The notes beneath the pieces were generated by a model. It saw nothing but the letters and a program-made list of their open reading frames with translations. It was not told where the DNA came from and searched no databases. Shown here piece by piece: positions 21,505 to 39,259 of a stretch of DNA of 48,322 nucleotides. Position numbers and translations under genes: made by a program. Position 1 is the first letter of the stretch, and every line of letters starts with the position of its first letter. This DNA is from an uncultured Flavobacteriaceae bacterium (GTDB taxonomy: Bacteria; Bacteroidota; Bacteroidia; Flavobacteriales; Flavobacteriaceae): NCBI GenBank assembly GCA_947486785.1, contig CANKUU010000025.1, positions 1-48,322 on the forward strand. The letters are read 5' to 3'.

Positions 21505-21652
21505 AATTATAAGTCTGCTTATGTAAACTAAACTGAAAAAGAAAGGTATTATTATGCAGTTTAACGATAAAAGCTTGAAATTTGACAGATAAAATACATC
21601 TCTATTTTGGGTGCGCAAGCTAAAATTAGGGTTTACTACTTTATTTTTTAAG

Positions 21653-23936: not shown

Positions 23937-24629
23937 CTAAACCATACGATATTCGGGGTATGTTTGGGCCAGTAATTCTTCTGATTTTTGAGGAATATCG
24001 ACAAACATTATTTTAAATAAAAAAACAGATTGTACCATTATAATTGCCAAAGCCAAATCAGAATATGTGTTGTTCAGAAATTGGGTTTGATTTGTAACAG
24101 ATAGGAGGTTAACAGGAATTATAAATAGGTCAGCTATTCCTAATTGCCTAAAGATGATATCTTGAAGCATCCATTTCTTGGATCGCAATTTCATCTGACG
24201 GTGAAAAAAATAACTTTTTATACTTATCAAAAATACAATTGTTGTAAAAAAAGATGCTATAATCATTTCTTTCATGCTTACATCAACAATACCATTTAAA
24301 ACTTTAAAAATGAGATAGATAAAAGAAGCGCTTAGAATCACCTTTGGCAAAGACCACCACGCTTTAAAATAATTCCAAATAAACCCTCTATATTTTTTAC
24401 ATAGCATTCTTCTGCGCTCTTCAACAACCTCTGAAAATCCAAAAACTCCAAACTTCTTAAATTCTAACGAAAGAGCGTTTTTAAAAGAAATATTCGGGTT
24501 TGTCTGCCATTTCGCCTCAATGCCATTGGCTAAATGATCTACTAACTCAGTTTGTAAGTCGTAGTAATCTACAAAGTGCTTTTGAGTAAACCGATATAAC
24601 TCATCTATTTGTTCATTTGATATTTTCAT
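23937..24629 (-). CDS. Membrane protein co-encoded with PadR
   Basis: I do not recognise a named family. The 230-residue product has a soluble N-terminal segment of about 90 residues (QIDELYRFTQKHFVDYYDLQ, with the VDHLANGIE helix) reminiscent of the DUF1700/HAAS-like modules linked to PadR regulators. It then has about four membrane helices (98-118, 124-144, 165-185, 192-212). It starts 3 bp after padR ends, so it is surely in the same transcript. PadR-linked membrane partners often modulate or depend on the adjacent exporter. That is inference. Confidence 0.65.
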   Translation of the reverse strand: MKISNEQIDELYRFTQKHFVDYYDLQTELVDHLANGIEAKWQTNPNISFKNALSLEFKKFGVFGFSEVVEERRRMLCKKYRGFIWNYFKAWWSLPKVILSASFIYLIFKVLNGIVDVSMKEMIIASFFTTIVFLISIKSYFFHRQMKLRSKKWMLQDIIFRQLGIADLFIIPVNLLSVTNQTQFLNNTYSDLALAIIMVQSVFLFKIMFVDIPQKSEELLAQTYPEYRMV

Positions 24630-24632
24630 AAG

Positions 24633-24971
24633 CTATAGAATATTCCAATTAGGGTTAACTAACTGCTGCATACTTCTTATAAAATCTTCTAGTTCGGCTA
24701 ACCTATTAACCGTTTCTTTTTCACCAAGTTCTGTAAGTTTATAATATTTGCGCAGCCGATTCTGCACTTTAGCGACCTCAACCTCTAAAAGACCTTCAGC
24801 TTCTAGTTTATGAAGCGCTGGATACAAAGCTCCTTCGGTAATTTTAAGCTTACCGTGTGTAAGTTGTTTTACTTTTTGTGTAATCTCATAGCCATACATC
24901 TTCCCTTCCTTGTCTAATAACTTTAAAATGATGGTGCTAAGACTTCCCTTAAACAATTTAGAATTTGGCAT
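24633..24971 (-). CDS. PadR family transcriptional regulator
   Basis: The 112-residue protein has the PadR winged helix: STIILKLLDKEGKMYGYEIT, then KLKITEGALYPALHKLEAEGLLEVE and RKYYKLTELGEKE. These are followed by a short C-terminal dimerisation helix. It represses genes in response to small molecules or stress. It heads a minus-strand unit with the membrane protein and probably the DUF5687 exporter. A perfect 8-bp inverted repeat 40 bp upstream of its start (25011-25031) is a good candidate for its own operator. Confidence 0.92.
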   Translation of the reverse strand: MPNSKLFKGSLSTIILKLLDKEGKMYGYEITQKVKQLTHGKLKITEGALYPALHKLEAEGLLEVEVAKVQNRLRKYYKLTELGEKETVNRLAELEDFIRSMQQLVNPNWNIL

Positions 24972-25010
24972 CTCGTATGTTAAAACCGATTTAAATGTAC
25001 TTTATTTTAC

Positions 25011-25031
25011 ATACATAAACAACTTATGTAT
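25011..25031. promoter_or_regulatory. Palindrome, candidate PadR operator
   Basis: ATACATAA (25011-25018) and TTATGTAT (25024-25031) are perfect reverse complements with a 5-base spacer. They lie in the divergent region between padR and the PaaE-like gene. PadR-type proteins usually bind ATGT/ACAT-containing dyads, and this one contains ACAT and ATGT halves. It sits just upstream of the plus-strand -7 element at 25037, so binding would affect both directions. Confidence 0.6.
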
Positions 25032-25036
25032 ATATA

Positions 25037-25044
25037 TAATTTTG
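25037..25044 (+). promoter_or_regulatory. -7 element of the PaaE-like gene
   Basis: TAATTTTG fits the Bacteroidota -7 consensus TAnnTTTG, about 87 bp before the start codon at 25131. No good TTG lies 19 bases upstream; the candidate operator palindrome covers that place. Confidence 0.5.
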
Positions 25045-25130
25045 AAGTAAAAGCATTTTTTTTGTTCATCCAATTTTATATCCTGCTTTCAATGCTTAAT
25101 TTTACAGACTAATTTTTAGGTAAAGAAACA

Positions 25131-26180
25131 ATGGCTGATTTTTATTCTCTCAACGTACAAAGTATTAAAAAATTGACTCCAAGTTCGGTAGCGATAAGCT
25201 TTGATATTCCTAAAGACCTTGCACAAACTTTTGCTTTTGAAGCGGGCCAGTACATTACCATTAAAAAGGAAATTAAAGGCAAAGAACTTCGTAGAGCTTA
25301 TTCTATAAGTTCTTCTCCTAAAAGCAACCGTATTACTATAGGAGTTAAAAAAGTAGATCGAGGGGGTTTTTCGGATTACGCACATTCAAAATTAGCCGTT
25401 GGCGATACCTTAGAAGTTATGCCGCCAGAAGGGCGTTTTATTTTTAAGCCTTCCGATGAAACAAAACATATTGCAGCTTTTGCTGCCGGTAGCGGTATTA
25501 CTCCTATAATGAGTATTGCTAAAACGGTACTAGATAGCAACCCAAAGAACACCTTTGTTTTGGTCTATGGGAACAAATCGTACGAAGAAACTATGTTTTA
25601 TACAGATTTGGTTAATTTACAGCTAGCAAATTCTAATCGATTTTTTATCTATTTCACTAATAGTCAAGCTATAGAAGAAGATTCACTTGTTGGGCGTATT
25701 AACGCAGCTACCGTAAACTATACCCTAAAAAATAAGCACGAAAATCAAATTTTTGATGCCTTTTACCTCTGCGGCCCAGAACAGATGATTAAAACCGTAA
25801 CCGATACGCTAGTAGAACAAGGGATTTCTAAAGATAAAGTACATTTTGAGCTTTTTACCGCTACTGAGAAAAAAGAAGCGTTACCGTTAAATACCGAAGG
25901 AGAGGCTAAAATTGAAGTAGTAGTTGACGATGAAACCTTCTCTTTTTCAATGGATAAAAAAATGCTAGTGCTTGATGCCGTTTTAAAAGAAAATATTGAC
26001 GCCCCTTATTCTTGTCAAGGTGGGGTGTGTAGTAGCTGTATTGCCCGAGTTAAGGAAGGACAAGCTATTATGGAAAAAAATCAAATTCTTACCGATGGAG
26101 AAATTGCAGAAGGATTAATTTTAACGTGCCAAGCTCGTCCAACAACTTCAATATTAAAAGTAGATTACGACGACGTATAG
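25131..26180 (+). CDS. Ferredoxin-NADP reductase-type flavoprotein with 2Fe-2S domain (PaaE-like)
   Basis: The 349-residue protein is a three-domain electron-transfer reductase. The FAD domain has RRAYSISS (54-61), the NAD(P)H domain has AAGSGITPIMS and YLCGPEQMI, and the C-terminal plant-type 2Fe-2S domain has Cys295, Cys300, Cys303 and Cys333 (CQGGVCSSC and LTCQ). It passes electrons from NAD(P)H to an oxygenase or similar partner. PaaE of the phenylacetyl-CoA epoxidase is the nearest named relative I know, but none of the paaABCD genes is nearby, so the partner is unknown. Its stop is 3 bp from the convergent patatin gene. Confidence 0.88.
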   Translation: MADFYSLNVQSIKKLTPSSVAISFDIPKDLAQTFAFEAGQYITIKKEIKGKELRRAYSISSSPKSNRITIGVKKVDRGGFSDYAHSKLAVGDTLEVMPPEGRFIFKPSDETKHIAAFAAGSGITPIMSIAKTVLDSNPKNTFVLVYGNKSYEETMFYTDLVNLQLANSNRFFIYFTNSQAIEEDSLVGRINAATVNYTLKNKHENQIFDAFYLCGPEQMIKTVTDTLVEQGISKDKVHFELFTATEKKEALPLNTEGEAKIEVVVDDETFSFSMDKKMLVLDAVLKENIDAPYSCQGGVCSSCIARVKEGQAIMEKNQILTDGEIAEGLILTCQARPTTSILKVDYDDV

Positions 26181-26183
26181 TTT

Positions 26184-26978
26184 TTAAGCCTTATTAAGAT
26201 CGCCAAAAGTTTCTTTTAACTGCATTAAAGCATTCTCATAGCCAATGTTATAAGCTTTCTCTAAGCCTTTTCTATCTAAAACACCAATGTTTTCAACTCG
26301 CGTTGGATTAAACATCAAATTACAAGACTCTAGTTTCTTTTGATTAATTGCAAAAATCATTAACCCTGTTACCCTAGCGGTAAGTTGAATAGAGTTCTTT
26401 AAATCCTTTTTCTGAAGTTTACTTACAATTGAAACGTTACTACCAATAATATAATCCGCTTTATCTTGAATAGGTTCTAAAGGAAAATTATTCATAATTC
26501 CACCATCTGCATAAAGCTCACCCTCTAGTTCTACTGGGCTAAACAATGGCGGAAGGGCCGCTGAAGCCAAAAGTGGTCGTATTAATTCTCCACTTGAATA
26601 AAAAGACTGCCTCGCAGTTTGCAAATTAGTTGCCACCACATAAAGCTCGCGCTCTAAGGCTGCAAAGCTATCTTCAGGAAAAAAGCCTTTAAATATTTCA
26701 ATATATCTATCTGTATCGATAAAACCAGATTTTCCTATGGTCAAAAAATTATATTTAAAAAGAGGCGTTTCTTTAAAAAAAGCTAACATATCAGCAATGC
26801 TATTACCATTTGCATATAATGCACCCACCAAGGCACCAACACTACTTCCGCTCACATAATCGGCAGAAATACCATAATCTTTTAAAGCCTTTATAGCACC
26901 AATATGTGCCATACCACGAACGCCACCACCTGATAGCACCAAACCTATCGATTTTGATTGTAATACTTCTAACTCCAT
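26184..26978 (-). CDS. Patatin-like phospholipase
   Basis: The 264-residue product has the patatin fold with the oxyanion loop GGGVRG (17-22), the nucleophile GSSVG (Ser46) and the catalytic aspartate in ADGGIMNNFP (Asp158). These enzymes hydrolyse acyl chains from lipids with a Ser-Asp dyad. No signal peptide is visible, so it should be cytoplasmic, resembling the RssA/YchK group. It converges on the PaaE-like gene with only 3 bp between the stops, leaving no room for a separate terminator. Confidence 0.92.
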   Translation of the reverse strand: MELEVLQSKSIGLVLSGGGVRGMAHIGAIKALKDYGISADYVSGSSVGALVGALYANGNSIADMLAFFKETPLFKYNFLTIGKSGFIDTDRYIEIFKGFFPEDSFAALERELYVVATNLQTARQSFYSSGELIRPLLASAALPPLFSPVELEGELYADGGIMNNFPLEPIQDKADYIIGSNVSIVSKLQKKDLKNSIQLTARVTGLMIFAINQKKLESCNLMFNPTRVENIGVLDRKGLEKAYNIGYENALMQLKETFGDLNKA

Positions 26979-27100
26979 TACTTTTCACTATTTATCTTAC
27001 AAAACCAAAAGGCTTTTCACAAACAACATAGTTTGTTAATCTCTTTTTTAACGTGCTCATAGCGCAGTAAGTGTTTATTCATCGAAACTAAGGTATTCTT

Positions 27101-27121
27101 TATTTAAAGTAACTTTAAATA
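27101..27121. promoter_or_regulatory. 21-bp perfect palindrome upstream of the arsenosugar-type locus
   Basis: TATTTAAAGT (27101-27110), a central A, and ACTTTAAATA (27112-27121) form a perfect odd palindrome in the 279-bp divergent region between the patatin and DUF2064 genes. A related TTAAAG/CTTTAA dyad occurs at 35359-35391 before arsS. An operator is the likely reading, but an AT-rich hairpin is the alternative. Confidence 0.5.
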
Positions 27122-27245
27122 CATTTTTTATAAAGTTAAAAAAAACACATCAGTTTGTTGCCCTAACTTTATTACCCTACAAAATATACGCCGACTTGTA
27201 AGCTATTAATAGCTTTACCGACGAAAGAATTGCTAAATTTTATCG

Positions 27246-27253
27246 TAAATTTG
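27246..27253 (+). promoter_or_regulatory. -7 element next to the GTG start of the DUF2064 gene
   Basis: TAAATTTG fits TAnnTTTG exactly. Transcription from it would begin close to the GTG at 27258, giving a leaderless message or one with a leader of a few bases. No TTG lies at the ideal 19-base distance. Confidence 0.45.
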
Positions 27254-27257
27254 ACCT

Positions 27258-27956
27258 GTGCATCGTATCCATCGAAACCAAACAGCAGTTTTAATTTTTG
27301 CTAATTCTTCTCGCGAAGAGTTAAAGCATAAATTAATGACGCATGGCCTTGAATTATTTGATGCACTTACAGCCGCCACTATTAGTACCGTAAAAAAAAG
27401 TAAGCTTCCTTATTTTCATTTTTCAGAAGAAAATCAAATTGGCACTACTTTTGGCGAACGTTTTTCAAATGCCATTCAAGCAATATTTGATAAAGGTTAT
27501 GAGCACGTTATTACCATTGGCAATGATGCTCCTCAATTAAAAGTATCTCATCTTTTAAAAGCACGGTGCGAACTACAGCGAAAAAAAATAGTTTTAGGCC
27601 CTTCCACTGATGGTGGCTTTTATTTATTGGGATTACATAAATCGCAGTTTAACAGGTCTCATTTTACAAAATTGGCATGGCAAACTTCAAAAATAACGAG
27701 AGACCTTATTTCGTTAGTGTCGAAACAAAATACCAATATTGTTTTTTTAGATCGTCTTTTCGATATCGATTCGGTCAAAGATATTAAAGCCATAATAGCA
27801 TTTAACTGGCCTATACCAAAAACCATTTTGGTAGCACTACTTCAAATTTTAAAGCAGAAAATAGAAATACCTTGCTATATTTCTGAAAAGCCTATTACTT
27901 TTAGCTGCTATAAACTTCAAAATAGAGGATCGCCCCTTCCTTTGCCACAATCTTAA
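27258..27956 (+). CDS. DUF2064/TIGR04282 arsenosugar-type glycosyltransferase
   Basis: The 232-residue product has the glycosyltransferase-A-like fold of DUF2064: TAVLIFANSSREELKHK near the N-terminus, then TFGERFSNAIQ, VITIGNDAPQL and GPSTDGGFYLLGL. NCBI names this family TIGR04282 arsenosugar biosynthesis glycosyltransferase because it co-occurs with ArsS; the reaction itself is not proven to my knowledge. The start must be GTG at 27258: a TGA precedes it in frame, and the next ATG (27336) would remove the conserved first strand. SusC follows after 73 bp on the same strand. Confidence 0.8.
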   Translation: MHRIHRNQTAVLIFANSSREELKHKLMTHGLELFDALTAATISTVKKSKLPYFHFSEENQIGTTFGERFSNAIQAIFDKGYEHVITIGNDAPQLKVSHLLKARCELQRKKIVLGPSTDGGFYLLGLHKSQFNRSHFTKLAWQTSKITRDLISLVSKQNTNIVFLDRLFDIDSVKDIKAIIAFNWPIPKTILVALLQILKQKIEIPCYISEKPITFSCYKLQNRGSPLPLPQS

Positions 27957-27973
27957 AGTAGTACTTTTTAGCA

Positions 27974-28004
27974 TATCTGTTTAGAAAAATCCAAAATACA
28001 GATA
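27974..28004. other. Inverted repeat in front of the SusC-like gene
   Basis: TATCTGT (27974-27980) and ACAGATA (27998-28004) are reverse complements with a 17-base loop, 26 bp before the SusC start. It could be an operator or an mRNA hairpin that sets the level of the downstream transport genes. I cannot tell which. Confidence 0.3.
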
Positions 28005-28029
28005 GGCGATACGCATTCAAAAATATTTA

Positions 28030-31000
28030 ATGAAACACATTTTTACAATGCTGGCTCTATGCACATTTGCATTGAGCTATGCTCAAACCACAATTTCTGG
28101 TTTTGTTAGTGACACAAATAAGCAGCCGATACCTTTTGTTAATATACTAGTTTCTGGCACCACAACCGGATCAAGCACAAACGAATTTGGTAAATTCACC
28201 ATTGAAACTGCATTAAATTCAGGCGAGCTCGAGTTTTCAGTCTTGGGTTATAAAACTCATACTATTCGCTTTACAGGATCTCAAACCATCAATGTTGTTC
28301 TAATAGCATCATCAGAAGAGCTTGACGAAGTGGTATTAACAGCCTTGGGTTTAAAAAGAACAACAAAAGAACTTGGTTATGCAGTACAAAGTTTAGATGC
28401 AAAAAGTATTACCGAGGTAAAATCGGTTAATTTCTTGGATAATTTATCTGGAAAACTTGCGGGCGTAACCATATCACAAGGGGCAACAGGAGTGGGTTCT
28501 TCTTCTAAAATAACCATTCGTGGTGAAGCATCCTTTTCTAATAACAATCCGTTATTTGTGGTAGACGGAGTTCCCATAAACAACAATTCGGTCTTTAACT
28601 TTACCAATGAGGCTGCTGCCGGTTTTCAAGAAATAGATTTCGGTAACGGAGCGATGGACGTAAACCCTGACGATATTGCTGAAGTTTCTGTTTTAAAAGG
28701 CCCTAGCGCTGCAGCGCTCTATGGCGCACGCGCCTCAAATGGTGTAATTGTTATTGCTACAAAAGATGGTTCTAAATCTACCGGTTTAGGCATTAGCTAT
28801 AACACGAGCTTCTTTGTAGATTCAGCTTTTAAACTACCTCAGTTTCAAAATAAATATGGCCAAGGTCAAGCCGGGGTTTTTGAGTTTGTAGATGGGCTAG
28901 GCGGTGGCACTAGTGATAATATTACATATAGCTGGGGACCTCAACTAGATGTAGGCAACCTCATTCCGCAATTCGATAGTCCGGTTACACTAGCTAATGG
29001 TACAACAGTGCGAGGTGGTGACACTTCATTATATAGTGGCTTACCTATTCGTGCAACAGCATTCAACTCCAACCCCAATAATCTGAAAAATTTTTACCAA
29101 ACTGGTCTTACTTTCATCAATAATATAGCCATTTCAAATCAATTTAATTCAAATAGCTATCGACTCTCGTTTACCGATTTACGAAGCGAATCTATTATTC
29201 CTGGAGTAGATTTAAATCGCCAAACCATTTCTGCACGTTTAAGGTTTCAACCAAATAGTGCTTTACGTATTACCTCGGCCATTAGCTATATAAATTCTAA
29301 TAGTGATAACCGACCTAGTAATGGCTATGGTTCTGAAAACGCAAACTACTCTCTAGTAGCATGGGGGCCTCGTTCTTTAAACATTGATTCTCTAAGAAAA
29401 TATTGGCAACCTGGCTTAGAGGGAGTTCAGCAATTTTCGTACAACTATACTTTTTTTGATAATCCTTTTTTTATACTTCATGAAAATCGCAATTCTTTTA
29501 ACCGAGATCGTGTTTTCGGAAATGTTTCTGCTAACTATAAAATAAGCCCGCAATTAACAGCCTCACTAATATCAGGAATGGATTATTCGAGCGAAAGAAG
29601 ACGACTACAACGTGCATTTAGCTCTAATCGTTTTAAAAATGGAGGCTACGCAGAACATGATGTTTTTTTTAGAGAAATTAATACTAGCTTTCTCATTAAT
29701 TATAATAACCGATTTAAAAACCTTAAGCTCGATATCTCTTTGGGCGGAAATCGTCTCGATCAAACTGCTTTTACCAATCAATCACAAGCAACCAGCTTAG
29801 CACAACCAGGTATTTTTGCATTATCAAACGCAGCTTCTCCTGTAGAAGTTTTTGAATTTGAATCTAACAAGCGAATCAATAGTTTTTATGGTTTTGCAAA
29901 GTTTGGGTACAAAGATTTTTTATACCTCGACATTACTGGAAGAAATGATTGGTCAAGTGCATTAGCCACACCCTTTTCTGTAGATAACACCTCTTTCTTT
30001 TATCCATCAGTTTCAAGCAGTTTTGTACTTTCAAATAGCATCGATCTACCACAAATAATCTCATTTGCAAAGCTTCGTGCTAGTTGGGCGCAAGTGGGTA
30101 ATGACACCAATCCCTATCAGACAACGGGCGCATTTGTGGCACAAACTCCTTTTAATGGACAACCAACATTTAGTAATCAAAATACAATAGCCAATCCTAA
30201 TTTAAAGCCAGAAAAAACTACAGCCATTGAAGTAGGCGCTGATATTCGCTTTTTTGGAGATCAATTGACTTTCGATATCACATATTTTAATGCCTTAACC
30301 GAAGACCAAATTATTTCGCTACCAATTGGTATTTCTTCAGGCTTTACCCAGCAAGTGGTCAACGGTGGCAAAGTTCGCTCTAAAGGTGTTGAAATTATCA
30401 TGGGTATTTCACCGGTATTCTCTAATAAATTTAGATGGACTAGTTCTTTAAATTTTAGCACCAATCGGGCTACAGTAGAAGATTTACCACAACAAAATGG
30501 TCGCTTAACCCTAGCATACTCCCGCATTTACAATAGTCAAAACCAAACGGTATTTTTTCAGGTAGAAGAAGGAGGACGTATTGGTGACTTATACGGAACA
30601 GGTTATTTAAAAAATGAAAATGGTGATTTTATACTAACGGATGAAGGACGTTATATACCCGATGATAACCTAAAAAAGTTAGGTAATTATAATCCTGATT
30701 TTACCCTTGGTTTTAACAATGAATTTCAGTTTAAAAAATGGAATATGGGGTTTTTAATTGATTGGCGTAAAGGCGGAATCATTGTTTCTAGAACTAGGGC
30801 ATTAGGTAATGTTGGTGGGCAATTAGCCGAGACTGCCTTTAGACCAGAAGAAGGTATTATTGCCGATGGAGTTGTAAATACCGGTAGTACAGAAAATCCG
30901 GTATATACCCCAAATACCGTTGCCGTAAGTGCTGAAAGTTATTACAGACAATTTTACGATAGAAACCATGAAGAAAATAACACCTATGATGCCTCATTTT

Positions 31001-31233
31001 TAAAATTGCGCCAACTATCGATAGGTTATACTTTTGATAAGCTTGCCTTATTTAGCAAAAATACAAGCTTACGCCTTTCGTTAATCGGAAAAAATCTGTT
31101 CGCTATTACTGAAAATCCGCATTTTGACCCAGAGCAACTTGCTGTACAAGGGCAGGGTTTTATTAGCGGTGTAGAAGATATGTCGTACGCAACTACCCGA
31201 AGTATTGGTATTAAGGCAGGGTTTAAATTTTAA
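28030..31233 (+). CDS. SusC/RagA family TonB-dependent outer-membrane receptor
   Basis: The 1067-residue protein has a signal peptide (1-18), a carboxypeptidase-D-like domain (about 20-105: ISGFVSDTNKQPIPFVNILV), a TonB plug (about 110-230: ITIRGEASF, NNPLFVVDGVPINNN, VLKGPSAAALYGARASNGVI) and a long beta barrel ending in a phenylalanine. It imports a ligand captured by the SusD partner, using TonB energy. Normal length. It is placed inside an arsenosugar-associated gene set rather than a polysaccharide locus: no glycoside hydrolase, SusE/F-like gene or hybrid two-component sensor is nearby. The ligand may therefore be a small sugar derivative. Confidence 0.95.
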   Translation: MKHIFTMLALCTFALSYAQTTISGFVSDTNKQPIPFVNILVSGTTTGSSTNEFGKFTIETALNSGELEFSVLGYKTHTIRFTGSQTINVVLIASSEELDEVVLTALGLKRTTKELGYAVQSLDAKSITEVKSVNFLDNLSGKLAGVTISQGATGVGSSSKITIRGEASFSNNNPLFVVDGVPINNNSVFNFTNEAAAGFQEIDFGNGAMDVNPDDIAEVSVLKGPSAAALYGARASNGVIVIATKDGSKSTGLGISYNTSFFVDSAFKLPQFQNKYGQGQAGVFEFVDGLGGGTSDNITYSWGPQLDVGNLIPQFDSPVTLANGTTVRGGDTSLYSGLPIRATAFNSNPNNLKNFYQTGLTFINNIAISNQFNSNSYRLSFTDLRSESIIPGVDLNRQTISARLRFQPNSALRITSAISYINSNSDNRPSNGYGSENANYSLVAWGPRSLNIDSLRKYWQPGLEGVQQFSYNYTFFDNPFFILHENRNSFNRDRVFGNVSANYKISPQLTASLISGMDYSSERRRLQRAFSSNRFKNGGYAEHDVFFREINTSFLINYNNRFKNLKLDISLGGNRLDQTAFTNQSQATSLAQPGIFALSNAASPVEVFEFESNKRINSFYGFAKFGYKDFLYLDITGRNDWSSALATPFSVDNTSFFYPSVSSSFVLSNSIDLPQIISFAKLRASWAQVGNDTNPYQTTGAFVAQTPFNGQPTFSNQNTIANPNLKPEKTTAIEVGADIRFFGDQLTFDITYFNALTEDQIISLPIGISSGFTQQVVNGGKVRSKGVEIIMGISPVFSNKFRWTSSLNFSTNRATVEDLPQQNGRLTLAYSRIYNSQNQTVFFQVEEGGRIGDLYGTGYLKNENGDFILTDEGRYIPDDNLKKLGNYNPDFTLGFNNEFQFKKWNMGFLIDWRKGGIIVSRTRALGNVGGQLAETAFRPEEGIIADGVVNTGSTENPVYTPNTVAVSAESYYRQFYDRNHEENNTYDASFLKLRQLSIGYTFDKLALFSKNTSLRLSLIGKNLFAITENPHFDPEQLAVQGQGFISGVEDMSYATTRSIGIKAGFKF

Positions 31234-31298
31234 TATATTCAATACTTTAAAAACCAAGAAAACAACAGATTACAAATACAATAAAAATATTTTTTAGC

Positions 31299-32783
31299 AT
31301 GAAAAATATAAACCTTTACTTTAACATAAGAACCCTAAAAGCAAGCTTTAGCTTTGTTATAATTTTAGGTGCCTTTACTTTACATCTCTCCTGTACCAAA
31401 GACTTCGAAGAAATAAATACGAACCCAAATGCGCCTGTCTCAGTTCAACCCAGTCTTCTACTGCGTCAAGTAATATATGACTATGGTGAACAAATGTCTT
31501 ATGAAGGTTTTACCGCCGGTAATTTATTAGGGCAATATACTACCGCTTTAGACTTTAACCTATTTGATCGTCACAACCTAAAATCGCCTCAACTGGGTGG
31601 AAACCCTTGGCCTATTTTTTACAAAAATTTAAGGGATAATCAGCTCATTTTAAATCAAGCTACCAGCAACGCTACATTTGCGGTTTATGAGGGACCCTCA
31701 AGAATTCTTAAGGCATATATGGCCGCGGCATTAACCGATATATTTGGTGATGTACCTTATTACAACGCCTTTAGAGGCCAAAATATGACCGTAACCCCAA
31801 GTTATGATACCCAAGAAAGCATCTATACAGGCGATGAAGGTATTTTAGACAATCTTAATAAAGGAATACTGGCGATAGAAAATTATCAAGGCAATCTATC
31901 TTTAGAAGGTGATATATTATTTAATGGAAACTTAGAGCGTTGGGTTCGTTTTGCAAATTCTCTTAAAATTAAATATATCTTACGTATTTCAGGCAAAATT
32001 CCAGTTTCAGAAGACCTACAAAATATTGTTACTTCCGGAAATTTTATTTCAGAAAATTCGCAAAACGCACATTTTAGTTTTACTGATGGTGAACCAAACA
32101 ACTTTAGATTGGCACGTTTGCGTATCGGTGATTTTAACAATTTTGTAATGTCTGAAACTATAGAAGATATCTTAAAAAAATACAATGATAGGCGAATAGC
32201 AACATTATTTAGGCCATATAGTAATAGTGATCAAGGTGATGAATATAACGGTTTACTTAATGGTATAGATGCTACTCAAAACGCAGCCGTACTTTCAGAT
32301 TATTCATTAGCAGGTCGTATTTTTCGAGAAAATACAGGGCAATTAGATGCCAACTTTATGACTAGCATGGAAACTTATTTTCTTTTAGCAGAGGCCGCAC
32401 TAAAAGGATATATTAACGGTGATGCTAAAGACTTTTATGAAACTGGAGTGCGCCAAGCTTTTGACTACTGGCAGGTACAATTACCAGAAGATTATTTAAG
32501 GGGCAGCGCCGCATATGATGCACCAAATGTAAATCCTTTAGAACAAATTATTACTCAAAAATGGATTGCAAATATGATTAACGGTTATGAAGGATGGATA
32601 GAATATCGTAGAACAGGATTTCCAGAACTGCGCACAATTTCGGCAAGTTTAAACGACAATTTAATTCCCGTTCGAATGCCTTATCCTTCAGAAGAAGAAG
32701 CCTTAAATGCAGCTAACTACGCCGAAGCAGCAAAAGCAACAAACGGAAATAGTATCAATGTAAAAGTGTGGTGGCAAGAATAA
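31299..32783 (+). CDS. SusD/RagB family outer-membrane lipoprotein (SusD-like_2 type)
   Basis: The 494-residue product has a lipoprotein signal (LHLSC, lipidated Cys32), then CTKDFEEINTNPNAP. That motif and the rest of the N-terminus are typical of the SusD-like_2 subgroup of nutrient-binding lipoproteins. The helical TPR core and a C-terminal EGWIEYRRTGFPEL segment are present. It acts as the lid of the SusC barrel and binds the ligand at the cell surface. It begins 65 bp after SusC and 32 bp before the symporter gene. Confidence 0.93.
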   Translation: MKNINLYFNIRTLKASFSFVIILGAFTLHLSCTKDFEEINTNPNAPVSVQPSLLLRQVIYDYGEQMSYEGFTAGNLLGQYTTALDFNLFDRHNLKSPQLGGNPWPIFYKNLRDNQLILNQATSNATFAVYEGPSRILKAYMAAALTDIFGDVPYYNAFRGQNMTVTPSYDTQESIYTGDEGILDNLNKGILAIENYQGNLSLEGDILFNGNLERWVRFANSLKIKYILRISGKIPVSEDLQNIVTSGNFISENSQNAHFSFTDGEPNNFRLARLRIGDFNNFVMSETIEDILKKYNDRRIATLFRPYSNSDQGDEYNGLLNGIDATQNAAVLSDYSLAGRIFRENTGQLDANFMTSMETYFLLAEAALKGYINGDAKDFYETGVRQAFDYWQVQLPEDYLRGSAAYDAPNVNPLEQIITQKWIANMINGYEGWIEYRRTGFPELRTISASLNDNLIPVRMPYPSEEEALNAANYAEAAKATNGNSINVKVWWQE

Positions 32784-32815
32784 AAAACAGTAGTATTACT
32801 AAAAAATACTCATAA

Positions 32816-34156
32816 ATGACTGATATACAAATTTGGCAATGGGGTTTAGTTATAGCATCAAGCACGCTGTTATTTCTAGTCTCACCTTGGGCAAAAAATA
32901 CTAATCAGTTTTTTAATGCCATTCAAAAGAAAAAAGCCCCAAATACGTTTCTATTAATGAGTAGTTTGGTGATCTCTTGGATCTTTGCCAAAAGCATTAC
33001 TAATGCAGCAAACTTGGGTTTAGATTATGGTATTGTTGGTGGGGTTGCTTATGCAGCATACTATCTCTCATTTGTGGTTGCAGGTATTATAATTTATAAG
33101 ATGCGAAAAGAAGGTAATATTAAAAGCATCCATCATTTTTTAAATGACAAATTTGGCACAAAAGCCGTAAGAGTATTTTCAATATTAATTGCAATTCGTC
33201 TTTTTAATGAGGTGTGGAGTAATACCATGGTTATTGGTTCATATTTCGGCGATATTGGCTCTAGCCATTACTACTGGGCCATCATTATTTTTACCTTATT
33301 TACATTAAGTTATGTTCTTAAAGGTGGCATGAGTAGTTCTATTTTTACTGATGTCATTCAAACTGGGCTGTTCGCTATTTTACTGTTTGTAATTTTGTTT
33401 TACATTTTAGGCCCACAAAGTACCTTTACTACTAAAGAAGTACTTTCTTCTGGAGTTTGGTCTTTTGAAATGGGGTTAAATCTTCTGTTTGCAGCAGCTT
33501 TACAATCGCTTAGTTATCCCTTTCATGACCCCGTACTTACGGATAGAGGTTTTATAAGCAGCCCTAAAGTAACCTTAAAGAGCTTTTTATGGGCAGGGTT
33601 ATTAGGAGCTTTATGTATTATACTATTCAGTATTATTGGTGTGTACGCAAGGGCACAAGGATTTGAAGGCCAAGCTGCTGTTGAAGTTGGTAAGGCTTTT
33701 GGTGTGATTATTTTGTTGATTATAAATTTTATTATGATTACCTCAGCGGCATCTACACTAGATTCCACTTTTTCATCCTTTTCAAAATTAACGGCTATTG
33801 ATCTTAAAATGGGGAAAAATCTAAAATTTGGACGCCTGTCGATGATTGTTATTGCAATTTTAGGTACGCTGCCCGTATTTTTTGATGCAGCAATACTCTC
33901 GGCAACCACTATAAGTGGTACCATGGTTATCGGACTTACCCCTATTTTTATATTTTGGAAATCGAAAGCACCCAAAATAAGTTTTCATTTAAGTGTTTTT
34001 TGTGGTATTATTTTTGGATTTCTACTAGTTTTTAAGGTTTTCCCAAAAAGCTTAATTTTTACTGATGGTAACCATGCAGACTTACTCTGGATTAATTTTT
34101 GGGGAATATTATGTTGTTTAATTCTTTATTTTATACCGACTTGGATAAAAAAATAA
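32816..34156 (+). CDS. Sodium:solute symporter (SSS family)
   Basis: The 446-residue product has about 12-13 membrane helices and the layout of the SSS family, with WIFAKSITNAANLGLDYG in the early helices, RLFNEVWSNTMVIGSYFG, and SAASTLDSTFSSFSKLTA, which corresponds to the sodium-site segment. It would carry a small organic solute across the inner membrane with Na+. As it directly follows SusC and SusD, the same ligand may pass from the surface to the cytoplasm. The end overlaps the next gene by 46 bp, which couples the two. Confidence 0.88.
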   Translation: MTDIQIWQWGLVIASSTLLFLVSPWAKNTNQFFNAIQKKKAPNTFLLMSSLVISWIFAKSITNAANLGLDYGIVGGVAYAAYYLSFVVAGIIIYKMRKEGNIKSIHHFLNDKFGTKAVRVFSILIAIRLFNEVWSNTMVIGSYFGDIGSSHYYWAIIIFTLFTLSYVLKGGMSSSIFTDVIQTGLFAILLFVILFYILGPQSTFTTKEVLSSGVWSFEMGLNLLFAAALQSLSYPFHDPVLTDRGFISSPKVTLKSFLWAGLLGALCIILFSIIGVYARAQGFEGQAAVEVGKAFGVIILLIINFIMITSAASTLDSTFSSFSKLTAIDLKMGKNLKFGRLSMIVIAILGTLPVFFDAAILSATTISGTMVIGLTPIFIFWKSKAPKISFHLSVFCGIIFGFLLVFKVFPKSLIFTDGNHADLLWINFWGILCCLILYFIPTWIKK

Positions 34157-35343
34157 AACATATCGGAACTAAAACTGATAAATTACTACTTTTCGGTGGA
34201 GTTTACAGTAATCTACAAGCACTAGCGCAGTTAAAAGCCATCGCAGAGTCTCATAACATAAGCGCTAAGAACTGCATCTGTACCGGCGATATTACAGGTT
34301 ACTGCGCTCAACCTGAAGAAACGATACAACTGTTTCGACAGTGGGGTGCCTTAAGTGTTGCAGGTAACGTAGAACTACAATTGGCAACAGATAGCGACGA
34401 TTGCGGATGCGATTTTAAAGAAGGAAGTCGTTGCGATAGTTTCTCTAAAACCTGGTTTCCATACACAAAAGGGCGCTTGTCTAAGAATTCATTTGAATGG
34501 ATGGCCACTATACCAAAGAACATCAGTTTTGACTATGCTGGCAAAAAGATTACCGTAGTACATGGTAGTTATTCTAATATTTCAGAATTTATCTACCAAT
34601 CTTCTCCAGAAAAAAACAAATTAAAGGTTTTTGAAGAAACACATAGTGATGTAATTATTGCTGGCCATTGTGGTTTGCCTTTTCATCAACATTTACAAGA
34701 TAAATTATGGCTCAACCCCGGTGTAATTGGCATGCCTGCGAACGATGGCACAACTCGTGTTTGGTATATTATACTAGATATAGAAAATGGAAATCTAAAA
34801 TATACACATCGGTCTTTTACTTATGAGCATAAAATTACGCAACGGCTTATGCAACAAAACCACCTTCCAGAAGAATATGCTAGTACTTTAAGTTCTGGTC
34901 TGTGGGATAATATGGAAATTTTACCCGAAATCGAAAAAATGGGGCAGGGTATACCAATTCAATTAGACAAAACACAAGAATATATAGCACCTAAAACCAA
35001 AAAAACAATGGCAGATTCGTATTACAACCCTAAAGATTTAAGAAAATTTGGAAAAATTACAGAATGGAGCGAAGAACTTGGCAACAAATTTTTCGAATAT
35101 TATGGTAAGGTTTTCGAAGAAGGCGCACTAAGTGCAAGAGAAAAGTCATTAATTGCACTTGCGGTTTCACATGTAGTAAAGTGCCCGTATTGTATAGATG
35201 CCTACACCAAAGACGGTTTACAAAAAGGAATTACCAAAGAAGAAATGATGGAGGCCGTTCATGTGGGTGCAGCTATTGAAAGCGGAGCAACACTTGTTCA
35301 CGGAGTTCAAATGATGAATAAATATGATAAATTAAGTATGTAA
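34111..35343 (+). CDS. Degenerate metallophosphoesterase fused to an ArsS-associated peroxidase-like domain
   Basis: Numbering is from the ATG at 34111 (410 residues). Residues 22-240 are a metallophosphoesterase of the YfcE/MJ0936 type, with altered motifs: DxH is GxY (30-32), GNHD is GNVE (85-88) and GHxH is GHCG (185-188). By family knowledge, the ligands of one metal site are largely lost (Gly30, Tyr32, Gly188), while those of the other are kept (Asp60, Asn86, His151, His186). Cysteines at 55, 57, 65, 98, 100, 108 and 187 are unusual. Residues 300-410, beginning with Met300, match the arsenosugar-associated peroxidase-like/carboxymuconolactone decarboxylase family, with CPYC (358-361) and VHVGAAIESGATLVHGVQMMNK. 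It overlaps the symporter gene by 46 bp. A later TTG start is possible. Confidence 0.82.
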   Translation: MLFNSLFYTDLDKKIKHIGTKTDKLLLFGGVYSNLQALAQLKAIAESHNISAKNCICTGDITGYCAQPEETIQLFRQWGALSVAGNVELQLATDSDDCGCDFKEGSRCDSFSKTWFPYTKGRLSKNSFEWMATIPKNISFDYAGKKITVVHGSYSNISEFIYQSSPEKNKLKVFEETHSDVIIAGHCGLPFHQHLQDKLWLNPGVIGMPANDGTTRVWYIILDIENGNLKYTHRSFTYEHKITQRLMQQNHLPEEYASTLSSGLWDNMEILPEIEKMGQGIPIQLDKTQEYIAPKTKKTMADSYYNPKDLRKFGKITEWSEELGNKFFEYYGKVFEEGALSAREKSLIALAVSHVVKCPYCIDAYTKDGLQKGITKEEMMEAVHVGAAIESGATLVHGVQMMNKYDKLSM

Positions 35344-35358
35344 TTGTAGGGCAAACCT

Positions 35359-35392
35359 AAAATTACTTAAAGTTACACTTTAAGTAATTTTT
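35359..35392 (+). terminator. Hairpin between the fusion gene and arsS
   Basis: AAAATTACTTAAAG (35359-35372) and CTTTAAGTAATTTT (35378-35391) are perfectly complementary with a 5-base loop, followed by a T. It lies 15 bp after the stop codon. It is AT-rich, so it may be a weak terminator or attenuator that separates arsS from the transport genes. It also contains the TTAAAG/CTTTAA dyad found at 27101, so an operator is an alternative. Confidence 0.6.
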
Positions 35393-35520
35393 AAATTTAG
35401 CTGTTTACAAATGAAATAAAATATTTGGTAACAGTCTACATAAAAAATTTACGGTAAAAAGTATTCCGTATCTCATAAGAATATAGATTAAGTTAACTTT
35501 TTAGGTTAAAGAAGAACAAA

Positions 35521-36576
35521 ATGGCGACAAAATCATTAAAGGCAAAAGGAGAAGCACTAGCACAAAGCAATAAGCAGCTAGATATTTTAAATGGCGGTAT
35601 CTTTGCAGAGGGCGAACTTCCTTATTTTAAAGATAAAATTGGGGAAATTGGTCATTTTCCACTACGACCAAAGAAATTAGAAATTCTGCAAATTAATGTG
35701 GGCTACATGTGTAACCAGGTTTGCGAACATTGCCATGTTGATGCTGGGCCAGACCGAAAAGAAATAATGACCCGAGAAACCATGACCCAATGTTTAGATA
35801 TAATTCGTAATACCGGAGCACACACTTTAGACTTAACGGGGGGAGCTCCTGAAATGAATCCTGATTTTCGTTGGTTTGTAGAAGAAGCCGCTAAAGCAGG
35901 TATCAAAGATTTTATTGTACGCTCTAATTTAACCATTATTCGTGCTAACAAAAAGTACTATGATCTACCCGATTTCTTTAAAAAACACAATGTTCACGTT
36001 ATTTCTTCGATGCCGCATTACACTCGAGGTAAGACAGATAAACAAAGAGGTAATGGTGTTTTCGATAAATCGATAAAAGCATTACAAGAATTAAACGATA
36101 GAGGCTATGGCATGCCGGGTAGTAGTTTAAGATTAGATTTGGTATATAATCCTTCGGGTGCATTTTTACCAGGAGATCAAATGGCCTTAGAGACTGACTT
36201 TAAAAATGCTTTAAAAGAAGATTTTAATATTCAATTTCACAATCTATTTGCAATAACCAATTTACCTATTGCACGATTTTTAGATTATTTAATTGCATCT
36301 GAAAATTATGAAGATTACATGTATTCGCTGGTAGAAGCATATAACCCAAATGCTGTTGCCAATGTGATGTGTACTAATACCATATCTATTAGCTGGGATG
36401 GATGGCTATATGATTGTGACTTTAATCAAATGCTAGACTTAAAGGTTGCTAACAAAATTAAACACATTAAAGACTACAACGAAGAACTTTTAAATGACAG
36501 AAATATAATCATTTCACAGCATTGTTATGGTTGCACTGCTGGCGCAGGAAGCAGTTGCCAAGGTGTAGTTGCGTAA
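35521..36576 (+). CDS. arsS: Arsenosugar biosynthesis radical SAM protein ArsS
   Basis: The 351-residue enzyme carries the radical SAM cluster motif CNQVCEHC (Cys64, Cys68, Cys71; CX3CX2C), the GGAPEMNPDF glycine motif, and a C-terminal cysteine set (Cys284, Cys299, Cys335, Cys338, Cys346; HCYGC, then SSCQG) that could hold an auxiliary cluster. ArsS proteins (TIGR04167) are thought to attach the 5'-deoxyadenosyl group to dimethylarsinous compounds to make arsenosugars; some relatives are selenoproteins, but this one has cysteines throughout. It follows a hairpin and has its own 128-bp leader, with a poorly matching TAACTTTT -7-like element about 20 bp upstream. No arsM methyltransferase gene is in the window. 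Confidence 0.9.
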   Translation: MATKSLKAKGEALAQSNKQLDILNGGIFAEGELPYFKDKIGEIGHFPLRPKKLEILQINVGYMCNQVCEHCHVDAGPDRKEIMTRETMTQCLDIIRNTGAHTLDLTGGAPEMNPDFRWFVEEAAKAGIKDFIVRSNLTIIRANKKYYDLPDFFKKHNVHVISSMPHYTRGKTDKQRGNGVFDKSIKALQELNDRGYGMPGSSLRLDLVYNPSGAFLPGDQMALETDFKNALKEDFNIQFHNLFAITNLPIARFLDYLIASENYEDYMYSLVEAYNPNAVANVMCTNTISISWDGWLYDCDFNQMLDLKVANKIKHIKDYNEELLNDRNIIISQHCYGCTAGAGSSCQGVVA

Positions 36577-36969
36577 AACAGATATAAGCTAAAGTATACC
36601 CGTAACGAACTACATATTAGAGAAAAATCTTAGGCTTAAACTAAAGAAGAATTGTTAAATTTTACTGTTATCAGCAAACTTTTACTTCTCTTGATATGCT
36701 GAAGCCGAAAATTTAACTGAATTTAAAAATTTCCTCGGCCCATTAACTAATTCAAAATATAGCACAAAAGCAACTTTTAAGCCTTTTTAGAGATCATATA
36801 AACTATTGAATGTCTACTTTAATGTTGCTTTCATGCAGTCTAATCTACCTATGTGTTTAAATGAGGTCATTTTAGCTGTTTTTAAAAAAAAGTGTGCTGT
36901 AGATACCAAAATCAAAATTTTTAAGTTTTTTAAAAACCTACTCATCAGTTGGTCTTAAATCTAAAGCTT
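36577..36969. other. Gene-free spacer upstream of the TetR gene
   Basis: I see no gene in this 393-bp stretch. It contains a small palindrome AAATGA-GG-TCATTT (36859-36872), and near its end the TetR-linked dyad listed separately. The remainder is AT-rich. Confidence 0.5.
36936..36953. promoter_or_regulatory. Imperfect dyad, candidate TetR operator
   Basis: ACCTACT and AGTTGGT flank a 4-base spacer in an 18-bp dyad (six of seven arm positions complementary), ending 16 bp before the TetR ATG. TetR proteins commonly bind such sites in front of their own gene. Confidence 0.35.
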
Positions 36970-37572
36970 ATGGAAAAGTCTATTAAAAGAATGACCACCA
37001 ACAACAGAATGCTCGTTGCTGGACTTGAATTATTCTACCAAAAAGGATATTATACCACAAGTATTGACGATATTCTAACCAAACTAAATCTATCTAAAGG
37101 GGCATTTTATTATCACTTCGAATCAAAAGAAGACTATTTACTCGAAATTATTAAAACACTTCTAGTTCGAAAGGTGTATAGTGCTTTAGTTGAGCCTATC
37201 GAAAGCCATGAAAACACCATAGATTTGATCATAAATTGTTTTGAAAATTCTTTAGAAACCGCCGTACATAATGAAATGGATTGTGGTTTTATTCTAAATA
37301 ATTTTATTGCTGAGTTTAATGGAAGAAACGCTGAGGTAATGAAACATCTCAATGAAATTCTTAAAATATGGGAGGTTACCTTAGTTAGCGCCGTACAACG
37401 CGGCAAGTTTAACGGGCATATAAATAGGCATGCTGATGCAGAAAGTGTAGCTATCTATTTGATGAGCTCTTATATAGGTATTCGTACGCTTATGGCTGAA
37501 ACGAATCCATCAGCTAGAAAGTATCGTTACATGTCACAACTTCGCCAATACTTTAAGTCACTTCAACCCTAA
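36970..37572 (+). CDS. TetR family transcriptional regulator
   Basis: The product (200 residues from the ATG at 36970) has the TetR helix-turn-helix (about residues 8-55: RMLVAGLELFYQKGYYTTSI, then DILTKLNLSKGAFYYHF and SKEDYLLEII). A helical ligand domain of the TetR C-terminal type follows. A TTG at 36949 would add seven residues but has no support. It lies 393 bp after arsS on the same strand and could sense the imported compound, though nothing in the sequence names the ligand. It converges on the GT9 gene with a 25-bp gap. Confidence 0.88.
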   Translation: MEKSIKRMTTNNRMLVAGLELFYQKGYYTTSIDDILTKLNLSKGAFYYHFESKEDYLLEIIKTLLVRKVYSALVEPIESHENTIDLIINCFENSLETAVHNEMDCGFILNNFIAEFNGRNAEVMKHLNEILKIWEVTLVSAVQRGKFNGHINRHADAESVAIYLMSSYIGIRTLMAETNPSARKYRYMSQLRQYFKSLQP

Positions 37573-37597
37573 GAATTAGGTATACTAATAGCGCTAT

Positions 37598-38644
37598 TTA
37601 GCTCACTTTTAAAATTGCCTTAATCTTGGCCACAACATCTTGAGGCCTAATCGTACGCATCGCTTTACCGTAACCATTTGGCATCTTATTACCATAAACC
37701 GAAGTCGGTACAAGCGGAAATTGCTCACGATCGGCTAACAGAGCATTCTCAATGGGTTGACCGAAAGGATAAAAACCCGCATAAGGGTGTGTTATACCCC
37801 AAAGCGTTACGGTTGGCACACCAAAAAGTGCGGCTAAATGCGCATTTCCGCTATCCATAGCTAGCATTAGATCGAGGTTTGAAATAAGTGCTAATTCTTC
37901 CGAAAAGGTATATTTATTTACGACCGAAGTAGTATTGATAAATTTATTTTGTAATTGCTCGAGTACTAATTGTTCTTTATTTCCACCGCCAAAAAGCAGT
38001 ATATGAAACTTCCCAGACTCAGTTAAGTACTTCAGTACTTTTTCCATTAGGTCGATAGGGTACATTTTTCCATCAAAAGCCGCAAATGGTGCCACACCTA
38101 CTATCTTTTTAGCAGCTAGTTTATCACGTAATTTAGCCGTATTTATTGATAGTTCTCTTTTTGGCAAGATCAAATCTGTCGTTAAATTCAATGGGTAACC
38201 CAAGGTTTTAAATACGTCAGCATATCGCTGATGTGTTGGTTTTAATGCTTTAAAAATTTTAGCCTTTGCTCGTGTTAGGGCTGCTTTTTCTGCCCTTCCT
38301 TTATAGATTTGAACAAAAGGAATACCTATAGGTATAAAAAATATTTTTAAAATTTTACTTCGAAGAACATTATGCAAATCTGCAATTGCATCTATTTTAA
38401 GCGTGTTCAATTCTTTAAAAATTCGATATATGCCTAAAAAGCCATTATGCCTGCCTTTTACATCTACTTCAAATATAGATACATTAGAAAATTGACTAAA
38501 AAGTGGTTTAAAAAAAGCCCTGGTAAGCACCGTAATTTTAAGCTCGGGGTATTGCTGAACAAGCGCGGCAATAACATGAACCGTCATTGCAATGTCACCC
38601 ATGGCGGACAAACGTATGACCAAAAGGTGCTTTTTTGTACGCAT
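37598..38644 (-). CDS. Glycosyltransferase family 9 (heptosyltransferase-like)
   Basis: The 348-residue GT-B protein has an N-terminal HLLVIRLSAMGDIAMTVHVI nucleotide loop and the family motif VAPFAAFDGKMYP. The C-terminal donor site contains SNLDLMLAMDSGNAHLAALFG and TVTLWGITHPYAGFYPFG. GT9 enzymes add heptose or other sugars to lipid A core. In Bacteroidota the donor may differ, since heptose is not universal there. It is followed upstream (13 bp) by the DUF4254 gene, an arrangement that I recall in many flavobacteria. Confidence 0.88.
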   Translation of the reverse strand: MRTKKHLLVIRLSAMGDIAMTVHVIAALVQQYPELKITVLTRAFFKPLFSQFSNVSIFEVDVKGRHNGFLGIYRIFKELNTLKIDAIADLHNVLRSKILKIFFIPIGIPFVQIYKGRAEKAALTRAKAKIFKALKPTHQRYADVFKTLGYPLNLTTDLILPKRELSINTAKLRDKLAAKKIVGVAPFAAFDGKMYPIDLMEKVLKYLTESGKFHILLFGGGNKEQLVLEQLQNKFINTTSVVNKYTFSEELALISNLDLMLAMDSGNAHLAALFGVPTVTLWGITHPYAGFYPFGQPIENALLADREQFPLVPTSVYGNKMPNGYGKAMRTIRPQDVVAKIKAILKVS

Positions 38645-38656
38645 ATAATTTGTAGA

Positions 38657-39259
38657 TTACTTCAAACCCCGTAGCACCGGATTCAGCTCCTCGTCATTAT
38701 ACATTTTCATCTGCTTATAGACTTTCATATATTTCTTACCAGACTCAATATCTGCTAATAACTGATCGATAGCATTCGTTAGATCTGATTTTTGTTCAAG
38801 CAATACATTAAGTTTTTGTTGACACTTTTCGATATGAATTGAAGTCGCATCTTTACGTGAAGCTTCTTCTCTCATATGGTATATTTTTAGTGCTAAAATA
38901 GAAAGACGATCAATAGCCCAAGCAGGGCTCTCGGTGTTAATTGTAGCGCCTTCTAATATTTCAACCGATTGGTATTTATTTAAAAAATAACTATCGATAT
39001 ATTCTACTAAATCTGTTCTATCTTGATTACTGGCATCAATTTTTCGCTTTAAGGTTAATGCGGCCTCTGCATCAATATTCGGATCACGAATGATATCTTC
39101 ATAATGCCACTGCACCGTATCGATCCAATTTTTTCGGAATAACAAATGCGCTATTTCGTTTTTATCGTAGGGGTTAGTAAAAGATTGATATACATCGTCT
39201 AATACATGAAACCTAACGATACTTTCTTCAAAAATTTTGAATGCAAATTCACTAAACAT
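38657..39259 (-). CDS. DUF4254 family protein
   Basis: The 200-residue soluble, helical protein matches DUF4254 in its N-terminus (FEESIVRFHVLDDVYQSFTN, then NEIAHLLFRKNWIDTVQWHYED). It also has PAWAIDRLSILALKIYHMREE. The family has no assigned function; it nearly always sits beside a GT9 gene in Bacteroidota, which suggests a role in LPS core or surface-glycan assembly. It is 28 bp from the upstream DUF6427 gene and 12 bp from GT9. Confidence 0.8.
   Translation of the reverse strand: MFSEFAFKIFEESIVRFHVLDDVYQSFTNPYDKNEIAHLLFRKNWIDTVQWHYEDIIRDPNIDAEAALTLKRKIDASNQDRTDLVEYIDSYFLNKYQSVEILEGATINTESPAWAIDRLSILALKIYHMREEASRKDATSIHIEKCQQKLNVLLEQKSDLTNAIDQLLADIESGKKYMKVYKQMKMYNDEELNPVLRGLK

Follow-up and report, generated by a model that had tools for sequence, protein, structure and literature searches.

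Gene content of the locus

The window analysed here, the whole 48,322-nucleotide stretch of contig CANKUU010000025.1 (positions 1–48,322; assembly GCA_947486785.1, an uncultured Flavobacteriaceae bacterium), carries at 27258–36576 six nearly contiguous open reading frames (ORFs), all on the + strand, in which a SusC/SusD outer-membrane pair and a sodium symporter lie beside enzymes named for arsenosugar biosynthesis. These six co-directional genes had been described in a reading made from the sequence alone, and both the ORFs and the family scores bear out that layout while refining some of the gene identities.

The SusC/RagA TonB-dependent receptor (28030–31233) scores 574.5 bits against TIGR04056 (cut-off 368.25) and 52.4 bits against TIGR04057, and the adjacent, co-directional SusD-like lipoprotein (31299–32783), probably the lid of the SusC pore, scores 295.6 bits against PF12771 (cut-off 27), so that each protein lies above the cut-off of its own model. 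Cys32 of SusD is invariant across 58 alignment rows; the nearest solved chain by profile is 5j5u (158 bits), and the predicted structure is poor (mean pLDDT 54.8). With its TIGR04056 SusC and PF12771 lipoprotein encoded side by side, the pair resembles the SusC/SusD importers of Bacteroidota, including those of polysaccharide utilisation loci and RagAB. Unlike a polysaccharide utilisation locus, it is accompanied by no glycoside hydrolase, as the sequence-only reading had stated, and by no other carbohydrate-active enzyme (CAZyme) among the nine proteins scanned at 25131–37572, a scan made without a dedicated CAZyme library. Its partners are instead a symporter, a phosphoesterase-like protein and ArsS.

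The sodium:solute symporter (SSS; 32816–34156), which probably provides the inner-membrane step, was correctly named from the sequence in so far as it passes PF00474 (31.0 against a cut-off of 22.8). It is a remote member of that family, in a distinct subfamily, that falls short of TIGR00813 (45 against 184) and gives a weak match to a choline transporter in the PDB. A single open frame follows (34099–35343), fusing a metallophosphoesterase-fold domain (MPE; 34099–35013), which passes PF12850 (43.4 against a gathering score of 27), to a peroxidase-like domain of the AhpD/CMD type (PERX; 35014–35343, residues 306–414 of the fusion), which contains a CPYC motif and scores 196.5 bits against TIGR04169 (cut-off 120). 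The last gene (35521–36576) is assigned as ArsS by its family score (TIGR04167, 436.9 bits against a cut-off of 300). Its translation contains CNQVCEHC, an instance of the CX3CX2C cluster motif given for radical SAM enzymes in PMC8552651.

The first gene, cofDIV (27258–27956), had been called a DUF2064/TIGR04282 transferase. The DUF2064-like character stands (PF09837, 77.8 against a cut-off of 25.8), and the TIGR04282 assignment does not, since the score of 105.8 is below the cut-off of 134 and the match covers model positions 70–189 only. When the window copy is aligned with six divergent and six canonical sequences, the N-terminal K-T/S-R-L-A stretch that the canonical ones share is missing from cofDIV. 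A C-terminal N-K/R-G-S-P tail is conserved in a 66-row alignment of the window copy and 65 relatives.

Conservation of the cassette with ArsS

A scan for ArsS gave 80 named loci, the best 80 of at least 591, whose ORFs were read and clustered. SusC of the window type adjoins ArsS in 15 of them; 14 show the series SusC-SusD-SSS-MPE, hereafter the cassette, and in the remaining one (L066) the contig ends after SusD. Two layouts recur. In the window, Maribacter and Flagellimonas the order is cofDIV-SusC-SusD-SSS-MPE-PERX-ArsS, and in Winogradskyella, Algibacter, Cochleicola and others it is PERX-ArsS-cofDIV-SusC-SusD-SSS-MPE-rhodanese-TIGR04282-PNP.

We then searched an even draw of 348 Flavobacteriaceae genomes with profiles for SSS, ArsS, the arsenosugar-type methyltransferase ArsM (AsSugarArsM, NF038099) and MPE. 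The SSS profile finds 48 genomes, with one copy each, at 641 bits or more, and 47 of these also contain ArsS, which is present in 254 genomes overall. The MPE profile recovers exactly those 47 genomes at 448 bits or more, with one weak match elsewhere (111 bits). Across the 46 cassette regions that were read, the window left out, MPE directly follows SSS in all 46 and SusC-SusD directly precede SSS in 43; ArsS lies in 45 of the regions, on the same strand in every one, and MPE is fused to PERX in seven. The sequence-only reading had tied the SusC/SusD and symporter genes to arsS and had named a lack of co-occurrence in other genomes as its refutation; the genes do co-occur, both within the family and beyond it.

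Among 277 genomes drawn from the phylum, SSS is found in five: the window's own, that of a relative, and three others, each from a different family outside the Flavobacteriaceae. All three distant genomes keep the order SusC-SusD-SSS-MPE, and their best matches are 48 to 63% identical. One continues with the MPE-PERX fusion and then ArsS, in a second PERX-ArsS and the cassette are convergent neighbours separated by a single gene, and the third has ArsS elsewhere in the genome. AsSugarArsM is absent above cut-off from all three, with weaker matches in two (116 and 91 bits). Judged by this conservation of sequence and order, the core of the system is SusC, SusD, SSS and MPE together with PERX and ArsS. 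Because cofDIV does not stand beside the cassette in the three other families, it looks like an extra of the Flavobacteriaceae. It also adjoins PERX-ArsS in loci that have no cassette (L008–L012, L014 and L015).

Parts of the system also occur apart. SSS-MPE adjoin ArsS without SusC/SusD in L093, L123, L128 and L057, the last being one more of the 80 named loci, and the inner-membrane and MPE parts can therefore stand alone. The ArsS clusters of L008, L015, L035 and L067 hold a different large outer-membrane receptor of about 1040 amino acids and no SusC/SusD of this type; the two of these four receptors that were scanned contain CarboxypepD_reg and OMP_b-brl_4. It is as if another receptor can take the place of SusC/SusD in ArsS clusters.

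A phosphoesterase fold with an altered active site

The phosphoesterase-peroxidase fusion proposed from the sequence is real as a single frame, and its phosphoesterase fold is kept; the full phosphoesterase active site is not. The predicted structure of the fusion is good over the MPE domain only, and the best Foldseek matches to this domain are 3qfm (TMt 0.76), 3rqz and 1nnw, followed by Vps29 entries, so that the closest folds are those of SapH-type Ap4A hydrolase/phosphodiesterases. Vps29 is a largely non-catalytic relative of the phosphoesterases. An alignment of 62 rows, representing 57 distinct sequences, shows G33-G34-V-Y36 in all 57 where the solved relative 3rqz has S-D-V-H. G34 and Y36 thus replace the aspartate and histidine of the DxH motif, giving GxY, and, by motif, G192 replaces the second histidine of GHxH in all 57, giving GHxG. 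D64, N90, H155 and H190 are likewise retained throughout. The complete two-metal ligand set is therefore not present, and we take the substitutions to remove the metal-1 ligands and to leave those of metal 2. With the metal-1 ligands lost in every distinct sequence, ordinary phosphodiester hydrolysis by MPE is doubtful.

A set of cysteines further separates MPE from the SapH- and YfcE-type phosphoesterases and Vps29, which it resembles in fold. All 57 sequences share C59, C69, C102, C104 and C112, while C61 occurs in 50 and C191 in 53 of them; the three distant families keep all of the invariant five except C59, namely C69, C102, C104 and C112. Thiols bind trivalent arsenic, and dimethylarsinate is similar to a phosphodiester. 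A protein of this fold whose cysteines lie close to the motifs in sequence would accordingly make a reasonable handler of such compounds, and we infer that MPE may act on an imported arsenical. Fusion to PERX, seen both in Flavobacteriaceae and in one of the distant families, suggests that the two domains work together.

ArsM is often missing where the cassette is present

The typical flavobacterial arsenosugar cluster reads PERX-ArsS-rhodanese-TIGR04282-PNP-ArsM-(fatty-acid hydroxylase-like)-DUF547-TIGR04283, and the ArsM, TIGR04282 and TIGR04283 examples from such clusters pass models named for arsenosugar biosynthesis. In the window's genome much of this series lies on another contig, in the order rhodanese, canonical TIGR04282 (211.9 bits), PNP (342 bits), DUF547 and a TIGR04283-like protein, with ArsM missing after PNP. 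The genome (99.8% complete) gives no match to AsSugarArsM at E values up to 1e-12, nor up to 1e-50 in the search of the 348 genomes, and a general arsenite methyltransferase as replacement was rejected because NF008823 matches reach at most 46 bits against a cut-off of 263. The absence of arsM noted for the window thus extends, by two models, to the whole genome. By ArsS, the closest of the 80 named loci is L003 (95% identical), which has patatin-PERX-ArsS without a cassette at its ArsS locus and whose ArsM stands directly after PNP, 87 to 90% identical to the ArsM of clade relatives.

At the same site in 18 other genomes, ArsM directly follows PNP in seven, four of them cassette carriers (G005, G207, G099 and G130) and three without the cassette (G008, G007 and G017). 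The 11 genomes without ArsM after PNP are all carriers. The regions read were examined for a replacement methyltransferase in the gap. Two carriers of one genus (L114 and L121, from G390 and G216) have there, between PNP and the fatty-acid hydroxylase-like gene, a protein of 387 amino acids whose sequence reads like that of an MFS transporter.

The locus itself contains ArsM in 47 of the 80 named cases, and 17 of the other 33 genomes encode it at another place. With cassette status judged at the ArsS locus only, an above-cut-off ArsM is not found in 10 of the 15 genomes with the SusC/SusD cassette, compared with 6 of the 65 others. Among these ten, L031 gives a 73-bit match, and L034 and L066 come from metagenome-type assemblies (2.3 and 2.5 Mb), for which absence carries less weight. 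The six others comprise four with weak matches (93 to 107 bits), one with a partial match (85 bits) and one with none; two are metagenome bins.

The drawn set of 348 genomes, in which AsSugarArsM is found in 199, gives the same contrast, although it overlaps the named loci (six identical ArsS cores among 58 compared) and the two counts are not independent. ArsM is absent from 27 of the 47 genomes with SSS and ArsS and from 29 of the 207 with ArsS and no SSS (odds ratio 8.3, Fisher p = 2.5e-9, a test that ignores kinship). Restriction to genomes at least 95% complete leaves 26 of 46 against 21 of 170, again with a p value that ignores kinship. The 29 ArsS genomes that lack both ArsM and SSS, such as those of L138–L150, include eight under 95% complete.

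Kinship was addressed within genera and on an ArsS tree. Ten of the 72 genera with two ArsS genomes differ in SSS; in five of these ArsM is missing from the SSS carrier alone, in the other five both members have it, and the reverse is never seen. In one genus, one of two SSS carriers lacks ArsM. On the 136-tip ArsS tree a maximum-likelihood model in which gain and loss of ArsM depend on SSS is favoured (likelihood ratio 26.2, p = 2e-6, a ratio not attained in any of 40 histories simulated under independence); the fitted rate of ArsM loss without SSS is at its lower bound, and the fitted rates are not trustworthy. Paired phylogenetic tests point in the same direction, with a mean of 3.0 to 3.7 pairs against 0.1 to 0.5. 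On the tree, ArsM-bearing and ArsM-less carriers are intermingled.

A proposed uptake route for methylated arsenic

The activity expected of an ArsS enzyme is the adenosylation of dimethylarsinous acid. According to PMC12159101, the adenosylation of arsenic on the way to oxo-arsenosugars is the work of a radical SAM enzyme, and PMC8552651 has the Synechocystis ArsS working with ArsM in the first steps. Relative to this ArsM-ArsS pathway (NF038099, TIGR04167, TIGR04169, TIGR04282 and TIGR04283), the window's genome has ArsS, the peroxidase-like protein, a canonical TIGR04282 protein, a TIGR04283-type protein and PNP; it differs in lacking ArsM and in having SusC/SusD, SSS and a degenerate phosphoesterase beside ArsS.

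Our best explanation, whose chances of being right and wrong we judge to be evenly balanced, is that the cassette is a TonB-dependent uptake system for an already methylated arsenical, the putative ligand, which feeds ArsS and makes ArsM dispensable. SusD would capture the compound at the cell surface, TonB energy would drive its passage through SusC across the outer membrane, and SSS would bring it across the inner membrane with sodium. In the cytoplasm the MPE-PERX fusion may handle or reduce the arsenical and make it ready for ArsS, which would add the 5′-deoxyadenosyl group; PNP and the TIGR04282 and TIGR04283 proteins encoded on the other contig could then complete the sugar. The imported compound would stand in for the product of ArsM, which could be dispensed with and is absent here and in many carriers. 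Gene content and order, their conservation, the co-occurrence, the lack of ArsM at its usual site, and the lost metal-1 ligands and invariant cysteines of MPE are direct observations; the direction of transport, the arsenical nature of the ligand, its entry upstream of ArsS and the role of MPE are all points that we infer. More tentatively, and short of an even chance, we propose the wider picture in which SusC/SusD and a sodium symporter scavenge methylated arsenic, marine Bacteroidota build arsenosugars without methylating arsenite, MPE is a cysteine-based dimethylarsinate handler or reductase, and the system has repeatedly been exchanged with ArsM.

Several observations weigh against this explanation. 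SusC/SusD proteins usually import molecules larger than dimethylarsinate. One genome (G285, locus L137) has a divergent SSS homologue (641 bits) with no MPE, SusC/SusD or ArsS nearby and no ArsS in the genome, possibly reflecting an older function of the symporter subfamily, and one carrier (L104, G130) is the only one read in which the cassette lies apart from ArsS in the same genome. The within-genus contrast of five to zero has p = 0.0625, the paired phylogenetic tests are underpowered and miss 0.05, and the ArsS gene tree of 136 rows comes from a quick search and is not a species tree. ArsM loss also occurs without the cassette, as nine further genera show in which ArsM is missing from one of two SSS-free members. 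ArsM is retained in 20 of the 47 cassette genomes and missing from 29 of the 207 ArsS genomes without a cassette. Possession of the cassette is thus neither enough to bring about the loss of ArsM nor a precondition for it, and the cassette may be a supplement to ArsM and not always its replacement.

The rival explanations differ chiefly in what they would have the cassette import. The sequence-only reading proposed that an organoarsenical such as an arsenosugar is taken up and processed or re-used instead of being made. In its fullest form, intact arsenosugars or arsenosugar phospholipids from algal matter would be imported for breakdown or re-use and MPE would cut the phosphodiester, which agrees with the preference of SusC/SusD for larger ligands and with the phosphodiesterase-like fold. 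The loss of the metal-1 ligands in all 57 sequences speaks against such a cut, and ArsS, which accompanies the cassette in 45 of 46 regions, PNP and TIGR04282 would be needless for a finished sugar. Because ArsS, PNP, TIGR04282 and TIGR04283 are kept and ArsM is lost, the import of a substitute for the ArsM product accounts for the genome better than that of a finished sugar, and uptake of the intact compound, less well supported than precursor uptake, appears to us distinctly unlikely. We also consider it unlikely, to a lesser degree, that the cassette brings in an arsenic-free partner of the pathway, for example a nucleoside, sugar or lipid head group as acceptor. The SSS family carries many small organic solutes, and retention of ArsM in 20 of 47 carriers would fit import serving a different step, but this would leave unexplained why the gene that goes missing is ArsM, when one further along the pathway might equally have been lost.

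Recapture of the cell's own secreted arsenosugar or intermediate would suit the 14 regions in which ArsM-bearing carriers link the cassette with a complete cluster (PNP then ArsM); where ArsM is lacking, as in the window's genome, recapture cannot keep the pathway supplied, and we think it quite improbable. Only a little less improbable is that ArsS acts in ArsM-less bacteria on a non-arsenic substrate brought by the cassette: ArsS is assigned by family score alone, yet ArsS, PNP, TIGR04282 and TIGR04283 are kept in the window's genome as in ArsM-bearing relatives, and carriers of the two kinds are mixed on the tree. SusC/SusD pairs are common in these bacteria, which might have allowed a glycan locus and arsenosugar genes to become neighbours by chance. 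Chance adjacency was rejected on co-occurrence, gene order and spread to other families, given the same gene order in two Flavobacteriaceae layouts and three further families and the exact co-occurrence of SSS and MPE in 47 genomes, and we leave it a very small probability.

Both the transport class and the biosynthetic pathway are already known, and the parts come from known families. A limited literature search gave, among the matches listed, no report that organoarsenicals, arsenosugars included, are taken up through TonB or SusC/SusD systems, and on that basis the combination of parts, its conservation over families and its exchange with ArsM appear new. One source (PMC6656958) describes conversion of an arsenosugar to its thio form, with no dimethylarsinate, in an artificial gut system. 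If methylated arsenic is indeed the ligand, the cassette would let organic arsenic be taken up through the bacterial outer membrane, and arsenosugar synthesis would split into makers and scavengers of methylated arsenic. It would also give a candidate function to MPE, whose nearest families are named phosphoesterases. The prediction is testable in cultured Maribacter and Winogradskyella relatives with or without the cassette.

Other features of the window

No RNA family was found at 24500–38700, and a promoter and terminator scan gave results no better than shuffles. Two long ORFs elsewhere in the window, at 18961–21618 (885 amino acids) and 46406–48157 (583 amino acids), have no Pfam match. 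Just downstream of ArsS, at 36949–37572, lies a TetR-type regulator; such a gene stands near ArsS in 10 of the 80 named loci, all of the Maribacter/Muricauda-type group, and because of this restriction it is probably not part of the system.

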